A stretch of 64,000 bases of DNA, from positions 2,542,001-2,606,000 of the forward strand of contig NZ_CP045246.1 in assembly GCF_035189165.1 (NCBI RefSeq), written 5' to 3'. Made by a program: the position numbers and the translations under genes. The stretch is from Arthrobacter sp. JZ12 (GTDB lineage Bacteria > Actinomycetota > Actinomycetes > Actinomycetales > Micrococcaceae). Below the pieces are notes generated by a model, which was not told where the DNA came from, did not search any database, and saw nothing but the letters and a program-made list of their open reading frames with translations. This document shows, piece after piece, positions 19,792 to 37,374 of this stretch (position 1 is its first letter; the number at the start of each line of letters is the position of its first letter).

Positions 19792-21228
19792 CTACTCCCC
19801 GCGGGAGATCGCGATCATCTCCTCACGTGGCACAAGCTTCACGCGCTCGCGGATCAGGTCCGGCAGACTGCCGTCCCCGTGGACGTAGTTAGCGCCGAGC
19901 TTGAGCTCATGGGCATCCAGCTTCAGCCAGCCCTCCCACGTGGTGTAGCGGACGCCGCGCTCCTCGAGGAGGTTGATGATGGCGTCTTCATCCGGGTGTT
20001 CGGCCGGCGGCAGGTTCAACCGGTCCTCCAGCAGGAACCCGATGGTCTCGAGCGCGTCACCCTTGGTGTGGCCGATCAAGCCGACGGGACCACGCTTGAT
20101 CCAACCGGTGCAGTAGATTCCGGGCACCGGGTTGCCGGATTCGTCGATGACCCGCCCACCCTCGTTGGGGATGACGCCGGCGCGATCGTCATAGCCGACC
20201 TCGGGCAGCTCCGAGCCGAAGTAGCCGATCGCCCGGTAGACGGCCTGAACCGGGTAGTCGAGGAACTCTCCAGTGCCCTCCACGGAGCCGGCACCGTTGA
20301 GCCGGGTCCGCTCGAAGCGGATGTTGGCCACCTTGCCGGGTGTCTCCGGCGAATCGGTGATCTCGACCGGGCTGTGGAGGAAGTGGAGGTGGAGGCGGCG
20401 GGATGCCGTGAACTCGGACGGATCCTCGGGCTGCTCAACCAGCCAGTTGGTTAGGGTCTTGACCATGGTCTTGGTCTGGTTGTTGCTGGCGATCTGCTGC
20501 TCGGAAGCCTCGTCGAAGTCGAAGTCCTCCGGGTACAGCACGATGTCGACGTCACGGGAGTGCGAGAGCTCGCGCAGCTCAAGCGGCGTGAACTTCACCT
20601 GAGCGGGACCGCGGCGGCCGAAGACATGCACGTCGGTGACGGGTGAGCGCTTCAGCGCTTCGTAAACGTTCTGGGGAATTTCCGTGACCAGCAGGTCATC
20701 GGCATGCTTGGACAGGACCCGCGCAATGTCCAGTGCGACGTTGCCATTGCCGATGACAGCGATCTCCCGGGCGTCCAGGGGCCAGTCGCGGTCCACGTCG
20801 GGGTGGCCGTCGTACCAGGAGACAAAGTCCGCGCCGCCAAAGGAGCCTTCGAGCTCGATGCCGGGAATGTTGAGGTCGGCGTCCTTCACCGCACCGGTGG
20901 CGAAGATGACCGCATCGTAGAAGGTGCGGAAGTCCGACAGCGTCAGGTCGCGTCCGTAGTTCACGTTTCCAAGGAAACGGATATCACCTCGGTCCAGCAC
21001 CTTGTGCAGGGCAGTGACAATGCCCTTGATACGCGGGTGGTCGGGTGCAACGCCGTAGCGGATCAGGCCGTAGGGCGCTGGGTACTGGTCAAAGAGGTCG
21101 ATCGAGACCTCGAAGTCCCCGCCCTGCACCTCCTGCGACTTGGTCAGGATGTCTGCGGCATAGACACCGGCCGGGCCTGCGCCGATGATGGCGACCCGAA
21201 GCGGACGGGCCGACGTCGTGCTGGACAC
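19792..21228 (-). CDS. fprA: Ferredoxin/adrenodoxin-NADP reductase, FprA type (copy 1)
   Basis: Adrenodoxin-reductase-like flavoprotein of 478 aa that passes electrons between NADPH and ferredoxin. It has the FAD-binding GAGPAGVYAADIL motif at ~14, the APYGLIRYGVAPDH segment at ~52, the NADP-binding GNGNVALDIARVL motif at ~153, and the C-terminal RGPVGLIGHTKGDA. The GTG at 21228 (GAAGAAGG upstream) matches the N-terminal length of the second copy at 35908; an ATG at 21279 is also in frame. The two copies are very similar over their whole length. No ferredoxin gene is nearby. Confidence 0.92.
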   Translation of the reverse strand: MSSTTSARPLRVAIIGAGPAGVYAADILTKSQEVQGGDFEVSIDLFDQYPAPYGLIRYGVAPDHPRIKGIVTALHKVLDRGDIRFLGNVNYGRDLTLSDFRTFYDAVIFATGAVKDADLNIPGIELEGSFGGADFVSWYDGHPDVDRDWPLDAREIAVIGNGNVALDIARVLSKHADDLLVTEIPQNVYEALKRSPVTDVHVFGRRGPAQVKFTPLELRELSHSRDVDIVLYPEDFDFDEASEQQIASNNQTKTMVKTLTNWLVEQPEDPSEFTASRRLHLHFLHSPVEITDSPETPGKVANIRFERTRLNGAGSVEGTGEFLDYPVQAVYRAIGYFGSELPEVGYDDRAGVIPNEGGRVIDESGNPVPGIYCTGWIKRGPVGLIGHTKGDALETIGFLLEDRLNLPPAEHPDEDAIINLLEERGVRYTTWEGWLKLDAHELKLGANYVHGDGSLPDLIRERVKLVPREEMIAISRGE

Positions 21229-21423
21229 TGATGCGCCTTCTTCCCTATGGATAAGCGTGCGGACTTGATGTACGCGCATTAGCGCACAATTTACTATTCT
21301 AAATCCCTCTGCTTCGCGCGTCGAAAAGCAGTGGTGCCGCTCACTGAACCGGGTGGGATGAAATTGGAGAACAGGAGGAACGGAAGGAGGAATAGGAACC
21401 GCCCTGCATCAGTTGGCAAGCTT

Positions 21424-30235: not shown

Positions 30236-31912
30236 TCATCCCGCGGCACCAGGCTCAACTCCGGGAATGTCCGGAAGCTCGAAAATAAAAGTGGTTCCCC
30301 GTCCGAGTTCGCTTCGGCAGTGGATCCGTCCCCCATGTTCCTCGATGATCGACCGAACAATGGCCAGGCCGAGTCCCACGCCGGGAATCGCCGCCTGGCG
30401 CACAGCCGAGGTGCGGAAGAACTTGGAAAAGACCTCTGCACTGTCCTCCGGACTCATTCCCATGCCCTGGTCCTCCACCTCGCAGACCACGGATCCCGGC
30501 ATGCGCTGGGCGCGGATAGTGACCGTGCCGCCGGACGGCGAATACTTGATGGCATTGGACAGCAGGTTATCGAACACCTGGCCCATTCTGGCCGGGTCGA
30601 ATCGTGCGGTCATGCCCTCCGGCACTTCGCTGACGATTTCGACGCCGGCTTCCCGCCCGCGCGTGTGCATGACCGCCACGGATTCGGCCACGGTGGCACC
30701 CAGATCGGCGGTAACCGGTGAAACCTCAGGCGCTCCGGACGCCGCGGCCAGGAGATCGTCCACAAGGCGGCGCAGGCGCGCGACGTTCCGGGAGATGACG
30801 GTCAGGCCCGTTTTCGTCTCCGGCGGGAGGTCATCGTCGAGCATGATCTCCAGGTAACCCACGATCACGGTCAGCGGAGTCCGCAGCTCGTGGGAGACCA
30901 TGGCCACAAATTCCTCCTTGGCGTTAAGCGCGTTCACCAGCGTGGTCACGTCGTTGAAGGCGACGACGGCACCTTCACGCTTGCCGCTCTCATCCAGCAT
31001 CACCCGGGCTGACGCGGACAGCACGCGCTGGTTCTCACCGGTTCCGATGCGGATGAGGTTGTCGGAATACGTTTCGCCCCTCACGGCCCTGATGGCGGGG
31101 CGTTGATCTTCCGGGATGGGCGTAATGCCGTCGGCCCTGAAAAGGAGCAGATCCTTCTCGGGAGCGTCCTCGCGTCCGGGCGGCATGCCGATGCGGTGGA
31201 TTTCGCGCTGCCTGCGATTGAAGAGGATGTCGTGGCCGTCCGCGTCAATCGCTAGCAGTCCGACGTCGACGGTATTCACCGTCGCGTTCAGCAGCCGCTC
31301 GTTCCGTGCGCTGCGCTGCAGGAGCTGCTGCAGCGAGTGGTCCTTCTCTTCCATTGCCCGCTGCTGGTCCATCATGCTGGCAGTCATGACACGGATGGTC
31401 ACGCCGATGGTGAAGATGATGACGGGCAGCAGCGCGGACTGTGTGAGTTGGGAGGGGTTAACCTCCGCATCCTGCAGGAAGACCGGCACCCAGATGATTG
31501 CGAGCGGCCCCAGCAGGCTCACGGCGAGGGCAAAACGGGGATGAAGTCCTGAAGCGCAGAGCCACAGAACCGGGAACACTGCCAGCAACCCCACCCCGAG
31601 AACCTCGATATCCGCGCCGAACCGGAGCAGGCCGATCGGTATGAAGCTTGCCACGGGAACGATAAGGAACAGTCCGTAGGGCAGTTTGTCCCAGGGAATC
31701 ACCGCGGTAAAGAGAAGGATGGCCGCGGTGAGAATCATCCCCCACTGGTAGGCCGCCCGCTCCCACACCACCGGATGCAGGAAGATCGTGGCGATCGCCA
31801 TCAGCGCCACGGTGATGGGAAGGGGTGCCAGGCTGAGCAGCACTCGGGCGCGCATCGACATCTCATGGAACTGCCGGGTGTTGAAGGTCAGGTAGGACAG
31901 AACGTTGTCCAT
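30236..31912 (-). CDS. Membrane sensor histidine kinase with PAS domain
   Basis: 558-aa kinase. Residues ~25-175 hold six or so hydrophobic segments forming an integral-membrane sensor, 185-205 are a helical linker, 205-325 a PAS-like domain, 330-395 a HisKA domain with the phospho-acceptor His341 in SHELRTP, and 430-545 the ATPase domain with N box (NLLSNAIKYSP), G1 (DQGMGM) and G2 (GVGLGLAIV), all intact. It is transcribed away from the response regulator-PP2C gene with 142 bases between them, so that protein is its probable partner. GAGG precedes the ATG. Confidence 0.93.
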   Translation of the reverse strand: MDNVLSYLTFNTRQFHEMSMRARVLLSLAPLPITVALMAIATIFLHPVVWERAAYQWGMILTAAILLFTAVIPWDKLPYGLFLIVPVASFIPIGLLRFGADIEVLGVGLLAVFPVLWLCASGLHPRFALAVSLLGPLAIIWVPVFLQDAEVNPSQLTQSALLPVIIFTIGVTIRVMTASMMDQQRAMEEKDHSLQQLLQRSARNERLLNATVNTVDVGLLAIDADGHDILFNRRQREIHRIGMPPGREDAPEKDLLLFRADGITPIPEDQRPAIRAVRGETYSDNLIRIGTGENQRVLSASARVMLDESGKREGAVVAFNDVTTLVNALNAKEEFVAMVSHELRTPLTVIVGYLEIMLDDDLPPETKTGLTVISRNVARLRRLVDDLLAAASGAPEVSPVTADLGATVAESVAVMHTRGREAGVEIVSEVPEGMTARFDPARMGQVFDNLLSNAIKYSPSGGTVTIRAQRMPGSVVCEVEDQGMGMSPEDSAEVFSKFFRTSAVRQAAIPGVGLGLAIVRSIIEEHGGRIHCRSELGRGTTFIFELPDIPGVEPGAAG

Positions 31913-32054
31913 GATGCCTCGCGCTCCTTAGCTCCGATGCAGCGGATAGACCAACTCTATAGAGCGGGTCCGACAGGCCGCATTCCAGCACGCCCCGCCG
32001 TCGTCGGGCGACCCTTTCTGTCCCCCGGCGTCCGGTTATGGGTTAAATGGGGTC

Positions 32055-33176
32055 ATGACCGCATCAGCCCCGGCCCGCCGCGCCCTTGTCGTAGAAGACG
32101 ATGCGGACATCCGATTTCTGCTCGTCAGCGTGCTCAAGCGTGAGGGATTCGCCGTGGACGAAGCGGCAACGGTACAGGAGGGCGTGGAGCTGGCACGCCG
32201 GGGAGTGGACCTCATCACCCTCGACGTCAACCTCCCGGATGGCAGCGGGCTGGACGCCTGCGCCCAGATCCGACCGATCTCCGACGCCTACATCCTCATG
32301 ATCACGGCCCGTGGCAGCGAGATGGACCGCCTAAACGGGCTGGACACCGGAGCAGACGACTACATTGTCAAGCCCTTCAGCCCGCGCGAACTCGTGGCAC
32401 GCATCAACTCCCTCTTCCGGCGGCAGCACCGGCTGCAGGTGGCGAACAAGGCCGCCAGCGAAGCTGACGCGGATGAGCGGCGCCGCGCCGCGCAAGTGCA
32501 ACAGAGTCTCCTGCCGCGGCAGGGCCTCACACTGGGTGATTACGACGTCGCGGGCCGGTTCCGGCCTTCGCGTGCGGTGGGCGGTGACTTCTTTGACTGG
32601 TATCCCACGCCGGAGGGCATGCACTTCACGGTTGCAGACGCTATGGGCAAGGGAATGGGCGCAGCGCTCGTCGCGGCCACGGTACGTGCCGTGCTGCGCT
32701 CGACCTCCGAGGAAGCCGACCTGGAGGCGGCCTTTGCGGGTGCTGCCGCTTCGCTTGATGCCGACCTTGAGCGCGCGGGTTCCTTCGTGACCCTCGTTCA
32801 CGGCCGGCTCTCCACGGCCGACGGCGGTGTGGACCTGATCGACGCAGGACACGGCCTGGCCCTGCACGTCCGTGCTGACGGTTCCTGGACGCGTCCCGCC
32901 GCGGGCGGTGTTCCCCTTGGAACGGTGCCCGGGTGGAAGTGGCAAGCCGCACGAGTGACCTTGGCTCCGGGCGACGCGCTCGCCATGATCAGCGACGGCC
33001 TGCTTGACTTGTATGAATCTCTTGATGAATTCGCAGGCGCAGCCGCGCGCATCATCGCCGCAACGGACTCCGCCGAGCTTGCCTGCAAGGAGCTGCTGAT
33101 GCTCGGTGAGGATCCAAGGGTTGAGGACGATGTTACGGCCGTGGTGGTCCGCAGGCTCGGGAAGGTCGGGGAATGA
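32055..33176 (+). CDS. Response regulator with PP2C-type phosphatase output
   Basis: 373-aa two-domain protein. Residues ~9-122 are a receiver domain with the acidic pocket EDD (14-16), phospho-acceptor Asp57 in LITLDVNLP and Lys106 in VKPFSP. After a charged helical linker (123-150) comes a SpoIIE/RsbU-like PPM phosphatase (~165-370) with metal-site motifs GGDFFDW, VADAMGKGMGAAL, ISDGLLD and DDVTAVVV, so it should be active. Such proteins dephosphorylate a STAS protein when the receiver is phosphorylated. The likely substrate is encoded two genes downstream. Its stop overlaps the GT2 start (ATGA). Confidence 0.94.
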   Translation: MTASAPARRALVVEDDADIRFLLVSVLKREGFAVDEAATVQEGVELARRGVDLITLDVNLPDGSGLDACAQIRPISDAYILMITARGSEMDRLNGLDTGADDYIVKPFSPRELVARINSLFRRQHRLQVANKAASEADADERRRAAQVQQSLLPRQGLTLGDYDVAGRFRPSRAVGGDFFDWYPTPEGMHFTVADAMGKGMGAALVAATVRAVLRSTSEEADLEAAFAGAAASLDADLERAGSFVTLVHGRLSTADGGVDLIDAGHGLALHVRADGSWTRPAAGGVPLGTVPGWKWQAARVTLAPGDALAMISDGLLDLYESLDEFAGAAARIIAATDSAELACKELLMLGEDPRVEDDVTAVVVRRLGKVGE

Positions 33177-35125
33177 GTGTTTTCTGGGTGAGGTTGCTGG
33201 TGGTCCTCACCGTGATTCTCGGTGTGAACTACATTGCCTGGCGCTGGCTGGAGTCCCTCAACTGGGCCGCCTGGTGGATTGCGGTTCCGCTGGTTATCGC
33301 CGAGACCTACAGCCTGATCGACGTGGCCCTGTTCGGGATGACCGTCTGGAAGCTCAAGCGCCGCACTCCCCCGGAGCCGCCTGCGAATGCAACCGTCGAC
33401 GTCTTCATCACCACCTACAACGAACCCGTGGACATGGTGCTCAAGACCGCCAAGGCTGCGCAGCGCATCACCTACCCGCACAACACCTGGATCCTTGACG
33501 ACGGCGCGCGCCCGGAACTGCAGGAAGCAGCCGAACGGCTGGGAGTCGGCTACATCACGCGTGGACCGGAGTGGGCCAACCGCCCCCGCCATGCCAAGGC
33601 CGGCAATCTGAACAACGCGCTGATGTCGACGACGGGTGAGTTTCTGCTCATCCTCGACACCGATCAGGTGCCCGATCCACGCATCCTGGACCGCACGCTC
33701 GGATACTTCAACAACCGGCGCGTCAGCCTGGTTCAGACCCCGCAATACTTCGTGAACGTTCCCGAAGACGATCCTCTTGGTAGCCAGGCACCGCTGTTCT
33801 ACGGCCCGATCCAGCAGGGTAAGGATGGGTGGAACGCGGCGTTCTTCTGCGGCTCCAACGCCGTGCTCCGCAGGGAAGCGCTTATGCAGCTGGGGCTCTC
33901 CGGCTACGTCAAGGAAGTCGAGCGCGCAGTCAACACTGCTTTGAAGTCAGCTCGGGCGGCCGTTCGCCGTGCCCGCTCCTCACCGGAAGCAGCGAACCCG
34001 CTGGTCACGCAGCTCCTCAATGACGTCGACGAAGCCATCACGAAGGCGCACGCAGACAAGGCCGCCGGTGCCCCGCTGGCCGAGGTGACCTACCGCGTGC
34101 GCCGGTCGGTGGACCGCGCAGTACAGCAGATGGTTGCTGCCGACATGTCGGCAATGGAAGCGGATCTGGCGGAAATTGCCGCACTGGACCTCGCCGTCGA
34201 ACCCGGTGTTGCGGTCCCGGACCTGGACGACGCCGTCGAAAAGCTTTCCGAGCGCCAGTGGTCGCCGCTGGGCGCGCTTGAGTCCGTACAGGCGGTTCTT
34301 GATGCGATCTCCATCGACCGCGACGACGAGGCCCAGCCGGTCATGCCGCTCGCCACGATTTCCGTGACGGAAGACATGGCAACCTCCATGCGGATGCACG
34401 CGATGAAATGGCAGAGCGTCTACCACCACGAGGTCCTTGCCTACGGCCTTGCGCCCGAGGACCTGAAGACGATGCTCACGCAGCGCCTGCGCTGGGCCCA
34501 AGGAACCATCCAGGTGCTGCTGCGCGAGAACCCTCTGGTTAAGAAGGGCATGTCCATCGGACAGCGGCTCATGTACTTCGCAACGATGTGGAGTTACCTG
34601 AGCGGCTTCGCCGCAGTGGTCTACTTCGCGGCCCCAATCATCTACCTGACGCTCGGCATCCTTCCGGTCACCAGCCTGAGTTTCGACTTCTTCATCCGGT
34701 TCCTGCCGTTCATGATCGTGAACCAGCTGCTGTTCGCCGTGGTGGGACGCGGCGTAAGCACCTGGCGCGGCCAGCAGTACAGCCTTGCGCTGTTCCCGAC
34801 ATGGATCAAGGCCTGCACCACCGCGGCACGCAATGTGTGGTTTGGGCGGCCGCTCGGTTTCGCGGTGACGCCCAAGGCGCGTCAGGACGGTGGTCCGAGC
34901 TGGAGCCTGATTCGGCCGCAACTGATCGTGATGGTCCTGCTTGCTGTCGCTTCGGTGGTTGGAATCATCCGGCTGTGGACCGGACACAACGAGCCGTTGG
35001 GAACACTGGTCAATATCTTCTGGGTTGTGTTCGACCTGATTGTTCTGAGCGTGCTGATCAAAGCCGTGAAATACGAGGGATTCGTTCCCGAAGAGGAGAG
35101 GAGTGCTGATGCAGTTCACGATTGA
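33173..35125 (+). CDS. Membrane GT2 glycosyltransferase, cellulose-synthase-like, with insertion
   Basis: Processive-type family 2 glycosyltransferase of 650 aa, probably making an extracellular polysaccharide. Two N-terminal helices (~5-25, ~33-55) lead into the catalytic domain: DVFITTYNEP, LDDG (108-111), LDTD (161-164), FFCGSN (224-229), TED (399-401) and QRLRW (437-441), all present as in BcsA. Four or more helices follow (~470-500, ~508-526, ~580-602, ~615-632). Between FCGSN and TED there are about 155 extra residues, rich in Ala, Glu, Arg and Val and predicted helical, where BcsA has roughly 25. No PilZ domain is seen. It overlaps genes on both sides in the signalling operon. Confidence 0.92.
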   Translation: MSVFWVRLLVVLTVILGVNYIAWRWLESLNWAAWWIAVPLVIAETYSLIDVALFGMTVWKLKRRTPPEPPANATVDVFITTYNEPVDMVLKTAKAAQRITYPHNTWILDDGARPELQEAAERLGVGYITRGPEWANRPRHAKAGNLNNALMSTTGEFLLILDTDQVPDPRILDRTLGYFNNRRVSLVQTPQYFVNVPEDDPLGSQAPLFYGPIQQGKDGWNAAFFCGSNAVLRREALMQLGLSGYVKEVERAVNTALKSARAAVRRARSSPEAANPLVTQLLNDVDEAITKAHADKAAGAPLAEVTYRVRRSVDRAVQQMVAADMSAMEADLAEIAALDLAVEPGVAVPDLDDAVEKLSERQWSPLGALESVQAVLDAISIDRDDEAQPVMPLATISVTEDMATSMRMHAMKWQSVYHHEVLAYGLAPEDLKTMLTQRLRWAQGTIQVLLRENPLVKKGMSIGQRLMYFATMWSYLSGFAAVVYFAAPIIYLTLGILPVTSLSFDFFIRFLPFMIVNQLLFAVVGRGVSTWRGQQYSLALFPTWIKACTTAARNVWFGRPLGFAVTPKARQDGGPSWSLIRPQLIVMVLLAVASVVGIIRLWTGHNEPLGTLVNIFWVVFDLIVLSVLIKAVKYEGFVPEEERSADAVHD

Positions 35126-35441
35126 GGACAGGGGCACCTACACCGAGGTGATCGCCAACGGTCGGCTCAACATGGTCTCGGCGCCAACCCTTCGCTCGAC
35201 GGTTGACGAGGCCGTCGGAGCGGGCAGTCGGCACATTGTGGTCAATCTTGCCGCGACCGAATTCATGGATTCCTCCGGCCTCGGCGCGCTGATCGGCTGC
35301 CTGAAGGTGGCGCGGCAGGCCGGTGGAGACCTGCGGATTGCCTGCGTACAGCAGCAGGTGCGTATGGTCCTGGAGCTCACCAACATGAACCGCGTCCTCG
35401 CTCCGTACGACACCGTCGAAGAGGCGTTCGCCAATGACTGA
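35109..35441 (+). CDS. STAS domain anti-sigma-factor-antagonist-like protein
   Basis: Single STAS domain of 110 aa (RsbV/SpoIIAA type). The phosphorylation loop FMDSSGLGALIG contains Ser55 at the conserved position. In partner switching this Ser is phosphorylated by a GHKL kinase and dephosphorylated by a PP2C phosphatase. The ATG at 35109 is favoured by GAGGAGAGGAG immediately upstream (GTG at 35103 is in frame). It overlaps the GT2 gene by 17 bases and the ATPase gene by eight, so all four genes are translationally coupled. Confidence 0.93.
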   Translation: MQFTIEDRGTYTEVIANGRLNMVSAPTLRSTVDEAVGAGSRHIVVNLAATEFMDSSGLGALIGCLKVARQAGGDLRIACVQQQVRMVLELTNMNRVLAPYDTVEEAFAND

Positions 35442-35865
35442 GAGCGAACTCCAGCGGCGCTTCGAGGCGGACGCCCGGCCAGAGGCGATCAATGACCTCC
35501 ACGATGAGCTGGACCGGTTCTGGCACGGCCTCGACGAGGTCCCGTTCGAGGACCAGATGGCGTTCACCACGGCGGTGATCGAGGCGGCGTCCAACGTCGT
35601 CGAACACGGAGTCCCGCTGGATGGTGGGCTGCGCCTCGGGGTTGAGTTGAGCGCCACCCCCACCAGGCTCCAGGCACGAATCCTTGAGATCAATGCGGCA
35701 GCACACCCCGATCCCCTGTCCAGTGCGGGGGACAATCCTGGGGATGCAGAGTCGGGACGAGGGCTGTTCCTCATCAATGCCCTGGTCACCACGGTGACCG
35801 TGGAACGCCAGGGCAACACCAATGTCTGGGTGCTGTCCAGGGAATCCGGTACGCACAAGCACTAG
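35434..35865 (+). CDS. GHKL ATPase, RsbW-like, with degenerate G1 box
   Basis: 143-aa protein of the anti-sigma kinase (HATPase_c_2) family. The N box is intact (AVIEAASNVVEH, Glu50 and Asn54) and so is the G2 box (SGRGLFLI, ~107-114). The G1 box, normally DxGxGxDP-like, reads EINAAAHPDP: the adenine-binding Asp is Asn87 and both Gly are replaced by Ala and His. ATP binding may be weakened or lost, so it may act as a binding partner instead of a kinase. Last gene of the RR-GT2-STAS operon; no sigma factor is near. Confidence 0.87.
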   Translation: MTESELQRRFEADARPEAINDLHDELDRFWHGLDEVPFEDQMAFTTAVIEAASNVVEHGVPLDGGLRLGVELSATPTRLQARILEINAAAHPDPLSSAGDNPGDAESGRGLFLINALVTTVTVERQGNTNVWVLSRESGTHKH

Positions 35866-35907: not shown

Positions 35908-37374
35908 CTAGCTCCGGGACTGGGCGTCGACCCCGGCCTGCGTTTTGCTGAGCGCGCCGCGGGAAACTGACACCATGTCCTCGCGCGGAACCACCTTGAT
36001 GCGCTCGCGGACCACGCCGTCGATCTCGGTCGCGGCGTCGCCCAGCGCACGTTCGTGCGCGTCGAGCGCAAGCCAGCCCTCCCACGTGGTGTACTCGACA
36101 CCGCGTCCGGTCAGCAGCTCGACGACGGCGTCGTCGGACGGGGAGCTTGCCGCCGGCAGGTTCTCCAGGTCTTCCAGCAGGTAGGTAACGGTTTCCAGTG
36201 CGTCTCCCTTGGTGTGACCGATCAGGCCAACCGGGCCGCGCTTGATCCAGCCGGTCGCGTAGATTCCCGGCACATGGGCGCCCGAGGCATCCAGCACGCG
36301 TCCGCCGTCGTTAGGGATCACGCCACGCCTGTGGTCGAACTCGACCTCGGGAAGGGCGGAGCCGAAGTAGCCGACAGCGCGGTAAACGGCTTGTACGGGA
36401 TAGTCGATGAACTCTCCGGTGCCGACTGCGTTGCCCGTGCCGTCGAGCTCGGTGCGCTCGAACTTGATGCCCGTGACCTTCCCGTCCTCGCCCAGCACCT
36501 CGACGGGGTTGTGGAGGAAGTGGAGGTGAAGCCTCCGGGAGGCGGTGAACTCTGCAGGGTCCTCCGGCTGCTCGGCGATCCAGTTAGTCAACGTGCCGAC
36601 CATGGTCTTGGTCTGATTGTTCGTCTGGATCTGACGGTCCGATTCAGCGTCGAACTCGAAGTCCTCCGGGTAGAGCACAATGTCAACGTCGCGGGAGTGC
36701 GAAAGTTCGCGCAACTCAAGCGGCGTGAACTTGACCTGGGCCGGACCGCGGCGGCCAAAGACGTGCACGTCGGTGACCGGGGAGTTCTTCAAGCCCTGGT
36801 AGACATTGTCCGGAATCTCGGTGACCAGCAGGTCCTCGGCGTGCTTCGAGAGCATGCGGGCAACGTCGAGGGCCACGTTGCCGTTGCCGATCACGGCGAT
36901 TTCCCTCGCCTCCAGCGGCCACTCCCGGGGAACGTCGGGGTGCCCGTCGAACCATGAGACAAAGTCAGCGGCGCCGAAGGAGCCCTCGAGCTCAATGCCG
37001 GGGATGTTGAGGTCGGCGTCCTTGATCGCACCGGTGGCGAAGATGACGGCGTCGTAATGGGTGCGCAGGTCCTCCATGGTGAGATCGGTGCCGTACTCCA
37101 CGTTGCCGAAGAAGCGGATGTCGCCGCGGTCCAGCACCTTGTGCAGGGCGTTGACGATGCCCTTGATGCGCGGATGGTCCGGGGCCACGCCGTAGCGGAT
37201 GAGCCCGTAGGGCGCAGGATAGCGGTCGTAGAGGTCGATGCTGACCGTGAGTTCTCCCGATGCCACCGGAGCAGACTTGGTGAGGATGTCGGCGGCATAG
37301 ACGCCCGCCGGGCCGGAGCCGACGACGGCGACGCGCAGCGGACGGTTCAGGGAGAAGGTGGACGGTTGCGACAC
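35908..37374 (-). CDS. fprA: Ferredoxin-NADP reductase, FprA type (copy 2)
   Basis: Adrenodoxin-reductase-like flavoprotein of 488 aa, very similar to copy 1 at 19792, with the same GSGPAGVYAADIL, APYGLIRYGVAPDH, GNGNVALDVARML and RGPVGLIGHTKGDA motifs. It is the last gene of the leftward sulfate assimilation cluster, 87 bases after cysG, which suggests that it reduces the ferredoxin used by the sulfite reductase at the head of the cluster. GTG start with AAAGGAA upstream. The leader contains repeats of GTTCAGTGC (complement strand GCACTGAAC). The C-terminus differs from copy 1 (longer, ends KTQAGVDAQSRS). Confidence 0.93.
   Translation of the reverse strand: MSQPSTFSLNRPLRVAVVGSGPAGVYAADILTKSAPVASGELTVSIDLYDRYPAPYGLIRYGVAPDHPRIKGIVNALHKVLDRGDIRFFGNVEYGTDLTMEDLRTHYDAVIFATGAIKDADLNIPGIELEGSFGAADFVSWFDGHPDVPREWPLEAREIAVIGNGNVALDVARMLSKHAEDLLVTEIPDNVYQGLKNSPVTDVHVFGRRGPAQVKFTPLELRELSHSRDVDIVLYPEDFEFDAESDRQIQTNNQTKTMVGTLTNWIAEQPEDPAEFTASRRLHLHFLHNPVEVLGEDGKVTGIKFERTELDGTGNAVGTGEFIDYPVQAVYRAVGYFGSALPEVEFDHRRGVIPNDGGRVLDASGAHVPGIYATGWIKRGPVGLIGHTKGDALETVTYLLEDLENLPAASSPSDDAVVELLTGRGVEYTTWEGWLALDAHERALGDAATEIDGVVRERIKVVPREDMVSVSRGALSKTQAGVDAQSRS

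Follow-up and report, generated by a model that had tools for sequence, protein, structure and literature searches.

A partner-switch cassette without a neighbouring sigma factor is conserved beside an insert-bearing glycan synthase in Actinobacteria

What does a partner-switch cassette control when no sigma factor lies beside it? The question is raised by a locus of Arthrobacter sp. JZ12 within a stretch of 64,000 nucleotides (contig NZ_CP045246.1, positions 2,542,001 to 2,606,000; hereafter the window), in which the gene for a membrane sensor histidine kinase is divergent from four overlapping genes that encode a response regulator receiver fused to a SpoIIE-type PP2C phosphatase, a processive glycosyltransferase of family 2 (GT2) resembling the cellulose synthase BcsA, a stand-alone STAS protein and a stand-alone GHKL protein, the putative kinase of the STAS protein (Table 1). 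The original prediction, made from the sequence alone, read these genes as one chain that runs from kinase to phosphatase to STAS protein to ATPase to synthase and acts without a sigma factor. All five open reading frames (ORFs) are present and intact, Pfam confirms the layout that it described, and the frames of PP2C and GT2 overlap by 4 nt, those of GT2 and STAS by 17 nt (taking the ATG at 35109 as the STAS start) and those of STAS and GHKL by 8 nt. No sigma factor is found in the module's neighbourhood, which agrees with the prediction.

We searched for the GT2 in 149 genomes of the family Micrococcaceae, 347 genomes of the order and 396 of the phylum, classed the resulting loci by motif and score, and identified neighbouring genes with hidden Markov models built from the module's own proteins, which remote STAS or GHKL proteins may escape. 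A first set holds 43 loci and a second set the best 80 of at least 545 relatives, the rest of which may include GT2s without an insert; three loci common to both sets were merged. About 20 further genomes with full-length matches in the class search lie outside the counts, the genome-wide searches leave out L200, L243 and L253, and the alignments drop some second-set loci (17 of 80 in A2, 50 of 80 in A3). The GT2 matches fall into two kinds, namely those that span an insert present in the window's protein and those that skip it. Where the window's GT2 has 171 residues, the insert-less proteins have 20-21 (50 of 50 loci, a subset of those listed in the order and phylum searches). The insert-bearing GT2s form one group, with support of 100/99, in a maximum-likelihood tree of 53 core sequences, which took 30 of the 50 insert-less rows and left out L043 and L245 of the 20 insert rows chosen. 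Within that group a STAS-only subtype makes up one branch (100/99) and the remainder another (100/98).

STAS and GHKL genes both lie within 4 kb of the GT2 gene at 106 of the 120 distinct insert-bearing loci, that is, at 105 of 119 and at L220, a plasmid locus of Pseudarthrobacter sp. NamE5 that was counted apart, by tblastn, and in which STAS, GHKL and PP2C lie upstream of a GT2 split over two frames. Among the others of the 119, five have STAS only, one has GHKL only (L255) and two lie at a contig edge. The arrangement is regular: of the placements within 3.5 kb, STAS lies downstream of the GT2 on the same strand in 112 of 115 and GHKL in 109 of 110. A PP2C gene is near 102 of the 119 loci, in most cases upstream of the GT2, and extra copies occur; in L040-L043 it lies downstream of the set, so the link between GT2 and cassette survives rearrangement. 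Neither STAS nor GHKL was found within 3.5 kb of an insert-less GT2 at any of the 50 loci examined. The only PP2C among these 50 lies 2.3 kb away, at L166, and a STAS match lies about 11 kb from the GT2 of L156. At L315, 13 kb upstream of the G079 locus, neither PP2C nor histidine kinase was found. Hosts of the second-set loci include Arthrobacter, Kocuria, Pseudarthrobacter, Sinomonas, Rhodococcus, Gordonia, Mycobacterium, Nocardioides, Cellulomonas, Microbacterium and Clavibacter. Taken together, these findings indicate that GT2, STAS and GHKL, mostly with PP2C, are a conserved module across Actinobacteria; recurrence of the gene order in relatives, far above chance, rules out a chance neighbourhood.

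The five-gene chain of the original prediction does not hold as a unit across these relatives. A homologue of the histidine kinase is near 6 of 43 first-set and 12 of 80 second-set loci, and a PP2C fused to a receiver occurs at 10 of 32 and 24 of 80, respectively. Because both are found at a minority of loci, we take the core to be PP2C, GT2, STAS and GHKL; the gene order recurs in relatives for that core and less often with kinase and receiver. These last two appear, from the sequences compared, to be one lineage's input to a switch whose input is variable.

Co-occurrence extends to whole genomes. Insert-bearing GT2s are present in 25 of the 149 Micrococcaceae genomes (27 matches minus the insert-less G086 and G106), and a STAS match at E<=1e-8 in 29, which comprise all 25 genomes with such a GT2 and 4 of the 124 others (Fisher 1.5e-24, kinship ignored). 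The Arthrobacter sp. JZ12 genome itself holds one stand-alone STAS protein (a second match lies within a 547-aa frame), one stand-alone GHKL protein (13 further matches fall within frames of 403-1099 aa) and a single strong SpoIIE match, which is the response regulator-PP2C of the window. We dropped a second GHKL-like match (G000:C1:1103881, E 0.31), which overlaps a longer ORF on the opposite strand, and set aside a second SpoIIE match at 1112480, a 270-aa ORF followed, by reading, by a protein-kinase-like ORF. Conservation, co-occurrence and the restriction of the insert to the partnered class of synthase therefore uphold the core of the original prediction, a sigma-less partner-switch cassette tied to a GT2.

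The original prediction mentioned neither that insert nor the lack of a PilZ match, which together are the strongest clue. The best Foldseek match of the window's GT2 is Escherichia coli BcsA (9b8v), and both BcsA and plant CesA share its catalytic motifs and membrane fold. Its DDG, DxD, TED, QxxRW and FxVTxK motifs are invariant or nearly so among 64 aligned GT2 sequences, with DDG, DxD, TED, R438..W441 and F563, V565, T566 and K568 of FxVTxK invariant, and it scores 361 bits against TIGR03030, under the curated cut-off of 699. BcsA has a C-terminal PilZ domain; a Pfam search found none in the window's protein at E<=0.01. The insert, of about 150 residues (aa 242-392), sits between the FCGS and TED motifs and leads straight into the latter. 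BcsA lacks it, and the alignment to the E. coli protein breaks there, passing from 241 to 393 in the GT2 and from 447 to 449 in the BcsA chain, whereas in plant CesA this gap is filled by a long stretch, which we take to be the class-specific region; in soybean CesA3 (8vht), 136 residues separate the positions that match aa 238 and 397 of the window's protein. We know of no STAS partner for that plant region. AlphaFold2 (64 sequences) models the GT2 at a mean pLDDT, its per-residue confidence score, of 78.9, with predicted long helices at 234-268, 276-297 and 302-337, a shorter one at 365-379 and low-confidence linkers (pLDDT <50) at 338-363 and 381-396. Predicted alone, the insert forms a three-helix bundle with additional short helices (mean pLDDT 75.7). 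Foldseek matched it to no solved fold at E<=0.001 (best E 0.092), and a profile search of PDB sequences gave a best E of 0.032, which we took as no match.

The chemistry of the cassette can be followed through the same loci. S55 of the window's STAS protein aligns to the first Ser of DSSGLG in SpoIIAA (1auz), the phospho-acceptor there, and of 113 aligned STAS proteins 108 keep a Ser at this place (106 DSSG, 2 DSTG). The five proteins without it, which read GASG (3) or SPSG (2), come from exactly the loci that have no nearby GHKL or PP2C: L059, L060, L127, L128 and L129. These loci are one clade, which suggests one or few events rather than five. The GT2 inserts of this GHKL-less subtype are shorter (offset 134-141 vs about 171-190) and lack the segment that holds the RDWSPLGAL motif. 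Beside its insert-bearing GT2, L127 carries GH26 and GH16 (with ricin-type lectin) genes (L127:10922-13449; Pfam), and ORFs similar to these are present, by reading, in L059, L060 and L128; such neighbours hint at a beta-glucan product. The window's PP2C (SpoIIE, 107.6 bits) has its motif positions, the metal-site residues, intact, and 101 of 105 aligned PP2Cs keep all of them. The N-box residues E50 and N54 are kept in the window's GHKL, as are N-box E/N in 109 of 109 aligned sequences and GRG or GWG in 108 of 109. The protein exceeds the Pfam cut-off for HATPase_c_2 (42 bits) and scores 17 bits against the RsbW model, under its cut-off of 145; no solved anti-sigma kinase of the SpoIIAB type was matched to it by a sequence search of the PDB.

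The most economical reading of these patterns is that the STAS protein would be the synthase's partner, since it is present in every insert-GT2 genome of the Micrococcaceae set and is kept without kinase and phosphatase. The original prediction had placed the ATPase between STAS protein and synthase; that order is not favoured, because STAS persists in the GHKL-less subtype, suggesting that it is STAS that contacts the GT2. In that subtype STAS would be permanently unphosphorylated, and an activator makes more sense there than a permanent inhibitor. We therefore propose, with a probability of roughly 0.57, that the unphosphorylated form of STAS binds to the GT2 insert and thereby activates the synthase, and that the phosphorylation of STAS is set by GHKL and PP2C. 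When the signal is on, the divergent kinase of the window's lineage would drive the PP2C through its receiver, and the phosphatase would strip the phosphate from Ser55 of the STAS protein. Unphosphorylated STAS could then dock on the helical insert and activate or complete the synthase; as the insert leads directly into the TED motif, docking could position the TED segment. When the signal is off, GHKL would phosphorylate or sequester STAS, and the synthase would idle. Such a switch would control a cell-surface beta-glycan synthase independently of cyclic di-GMP (c-di-GMP). We infer the contact between STAS and insert, activation rather than inhibition, the beta-glucan product and the signal. 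A broader formulation, to which we give slightly less than even odds, is that these proteins are an actinobacterial class of beta-glycan synthases, independent of c-di-GMP, with a built-in STAS docking domain next to the TED motif, in which STAS may serve as an activating subunit and kinase and phosphatase as a removable layer, the last because the sister subtype has a phospho-dead STAS.

Several observations weigh against STAS docking on the insert. Neither STAS nor GHKL is near 6 of the 119 insert-bearing loci, and conservation is lower in the insert (mean majority fraction 0.53; 43 sequences) than in the core (0.82 and 0.84). Distances within the insert co-vary with those of STAS (partial r 0.44) and of GHKL (0.47; 103 complete loci), but only somewhat more than those of the membrane part of the GT2 do (0.36 and 0.30, respectively); the co-variation is weak and not specific, and serves as a hint. 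The Asp at the G1 position of GHKL proteins is expected to contact adenine. Among the 109 aligned sequences, this position is Asp in 62, Ala in 27, Glu in 16, His in 2 and Gly in 1, with one gap, so that 47 are without the Asp, and the window's protein has E85; because the Asp is missing in the window's lineage, kinase activity of its GHKL appears doubtful. Glu or Ala at G1 would mean that the nucleotide site is modified or that the protein is an anti-partner without catalytic activity. The loss of this Asp in many GHKLs, which suits a binding protein better than a kinase, also fits a different arrangement, in which GHKL rather than STAS is bound to the insert and keeps the synthase inactive, and unphosphorylated STAS pulls GHKL away. 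This would follow the classical sigma switch, the synthase replacing the sigma factor; the insert shows as much co-variation with GHKL as with STAS, and the insert segments missing from the GHKL-less subtype could be the GHKL contact. We nevertheless consider it unlikely, since five loci hold an insert and a phospho-dead STAS without a nearby GHKL, which argues for a role of STAS that does not depend on GHKL.

Cassettes without an adjoining GT2, which the original prediction had named as evidence that would tell against it, do exist, although the picture is mixed. In G099 and G116, which belong to the window's genus, histidine kinase, response regulator-PP2C, STAS and GHKL lie together without a GT2 between them, in a partly similar neighbourhood whose kinase-side ORFs resemble the window's by reading; each of these genomes holds an insert-bearing GT2 on a different contig. 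Response regulator-PP2C, STAS and GHKL are present in G034, G102 and G133 (L311, L312 and L313), and STAS and GHKL in G121 (L314), and no GT2 match at E<=1e-20 was found in these four genomes, which count against an exclusive link between cassette and GT2: either the synthase was lost or the cassette has another output there. Gene order and co-occurrence are compatible with physical contact as well as with co-regulation. The cassette might control something else, such as a sigma factor, and only share an operon with the GT2, as the GT2-less cassettes of G034, G102 and G133 would allow. The genome does contain one unlinked SigB/F-like ORF (G000:C1:513236-513820, L271; 187 bits, under the cut-off of 234), in which regions 2, 3 and 4 are present and the first 26 model positions are unmatched, and none of the called ORFs beside it encodes an anti-sigma factor. 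Its orthologues (E<1e-30) are enriched in insert-GT2 genomes, where they occur in 14 of 25 vs 27 of 124 others (p 0.001), an association that is real on paper yet incomplete: at that threshold the factor is absent from 11 of the 25, with full or split modules, the 27 other genomes have it but lack an insert-GT2, and both are missing from G034, G102 and G133. Since this explanation also leaves unaccounted for why insert-bearing GT2s alone are partnered, we regard it as quite improbable. Still further down the scale we place the idea that the insert is an oligomerisation element and that the cassette acts on precursor supply, export or turnover. The insert does occupy the same position as the CesA region, which the available part of a review ties to assembly or to auxiliary proteins (PMC8306620), but the strict association of insert and STAS would then go unexplained.

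Docking of STAS on the synthase would have relatives among known switches, which we compare here as far as the available excerpts of the cited papers describe them. In SiaABCD of Pseudomonas aeruginosa, a small STAS-like partner, whose phosphorylation state depends on a phosphatase and a kinase, acts on an enzyme: unphosphorylated SiaC binds the helical stalk of the cyclase SiaD and activates it (PMC8457831), a structural precedent for STAS docking on a helical insert. The target there is a diguanylate cyclase and the partner a DUF1987 protein, whereas here the proposed target is a polymer synthase and the partner a true STAS protein. In HsbR-HsbA-HsbD of P. aeruginosa (PMC8457831, PMC5085249) and BgrV-BgrR of Sinorhizobium meliloti (PMC8457831), too, a STAS protein regulates an enzyme and not only a sigma factor; these differ in that their output is c-di-GMP, with no insert-bearing glycan synthase in the parts consulted. 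Closer in output is SypE-SypA of Vibrio fischeri, in which biofilm polysaccharide requires the STAS protein SypA, itself under the control of SypE, a response regulator whose output is a PP2C; SypA is active when unphosphorylated, its S56A form escapes inhibition by SypE, and its mechanism is stated as unknown (PMC4517449). The Ser-less STAS of the kinase-less subtype resembles that S56A form. SypE combines kinase and PP2C in one protein, whereas the kinase-like GHKL is separate here (Pfam), and a linked insert-bearing GT2 is not among the features reported in the available text (PMC4517449). HmpUVW of Nostoc punctiforme is likewise a sigma-less partner switch tied to polysaccharide, the direct target of HmpV being stated as unknown, and all4160 of Anabaena is a natural fusion of STAS and glycosyltransferase (review PMC8256260); both, as described there, differ in glycosyltransferase context and are not actinobacterial. 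Enzyme-targeting partner switches (SiaC-SiaD, HsbA-HsbD, BgrV-BgrR) and polysaccharide-linked ones (SypE-SypA, HmpUVW, with the all4160 fusion) are thus already known; a prior description of the GT2-STAS-GHKL-PP2C module was not found in the open-licence full-text literature.

Table 1 Features of the locus in the window.
Feature	Position	Strand	Basis
Membrane sensor histidine kinase, 558 aa	30236..31912	-	Pfam HisKA + HATPase_c
Response regulator receiver fused to SpoIIE-type PP2C, 373 aa	32055..33176	+	Pfam Response_reg + SpoIIE
BcsA-like processive GT2 (glycan synthase), 650 aa	33173..35125	+	Pfam Cellulose_synt, Glycos_transf_2
Codons of GT2 insert (aa 242-392), candidate docking domain	33896..34348	+	BcsA alignment, structure prediction
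Stand-alone STAS, 110 aa	35109..35441	+	Pfam STAS, 69 bits
STAS S55 codon	35271-35273	+	Aligned to SpoIIAA
Stand-alone GHKL, putative STAS kinase, 143 aa	35434..35865	+	Pfam HATPase_c_2, 42 bits

The kinase gene is adjoined by a gene for a Glycolipid_bind protein (PF06475, 29603-30235, plus strand; Pfam); the 92 other loci compared yielded no further copy. Directly downstream of the module, on the opposite strand, lies a ferredoxin-NADP reductase-like ORF (35908-37374, minus strand), which by reading is of one type with another in the window (19792-21279, minus strand).

If the proposed docking of STAS on the synthase is correct, a partner switch would act directly on a processive polysaccharide polymerase. 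The module places a candidate target and a candidate docking domain in one operon of many culturable actinobacteria, and natural controls exist in the insert-less synthases, in the kinase-less subtype and in the genomes that hold cassette and synthase apart. For the sigma-less switches of SypA and HmpV, what they act on is stated as unknown in the excerpts available (PMC4517449, PMC8256260). Direct control of a polymerase by a phospho-switch, as an alternative to control of surface glycans through c-di-GMP and PilZ, thereby becomes testable.

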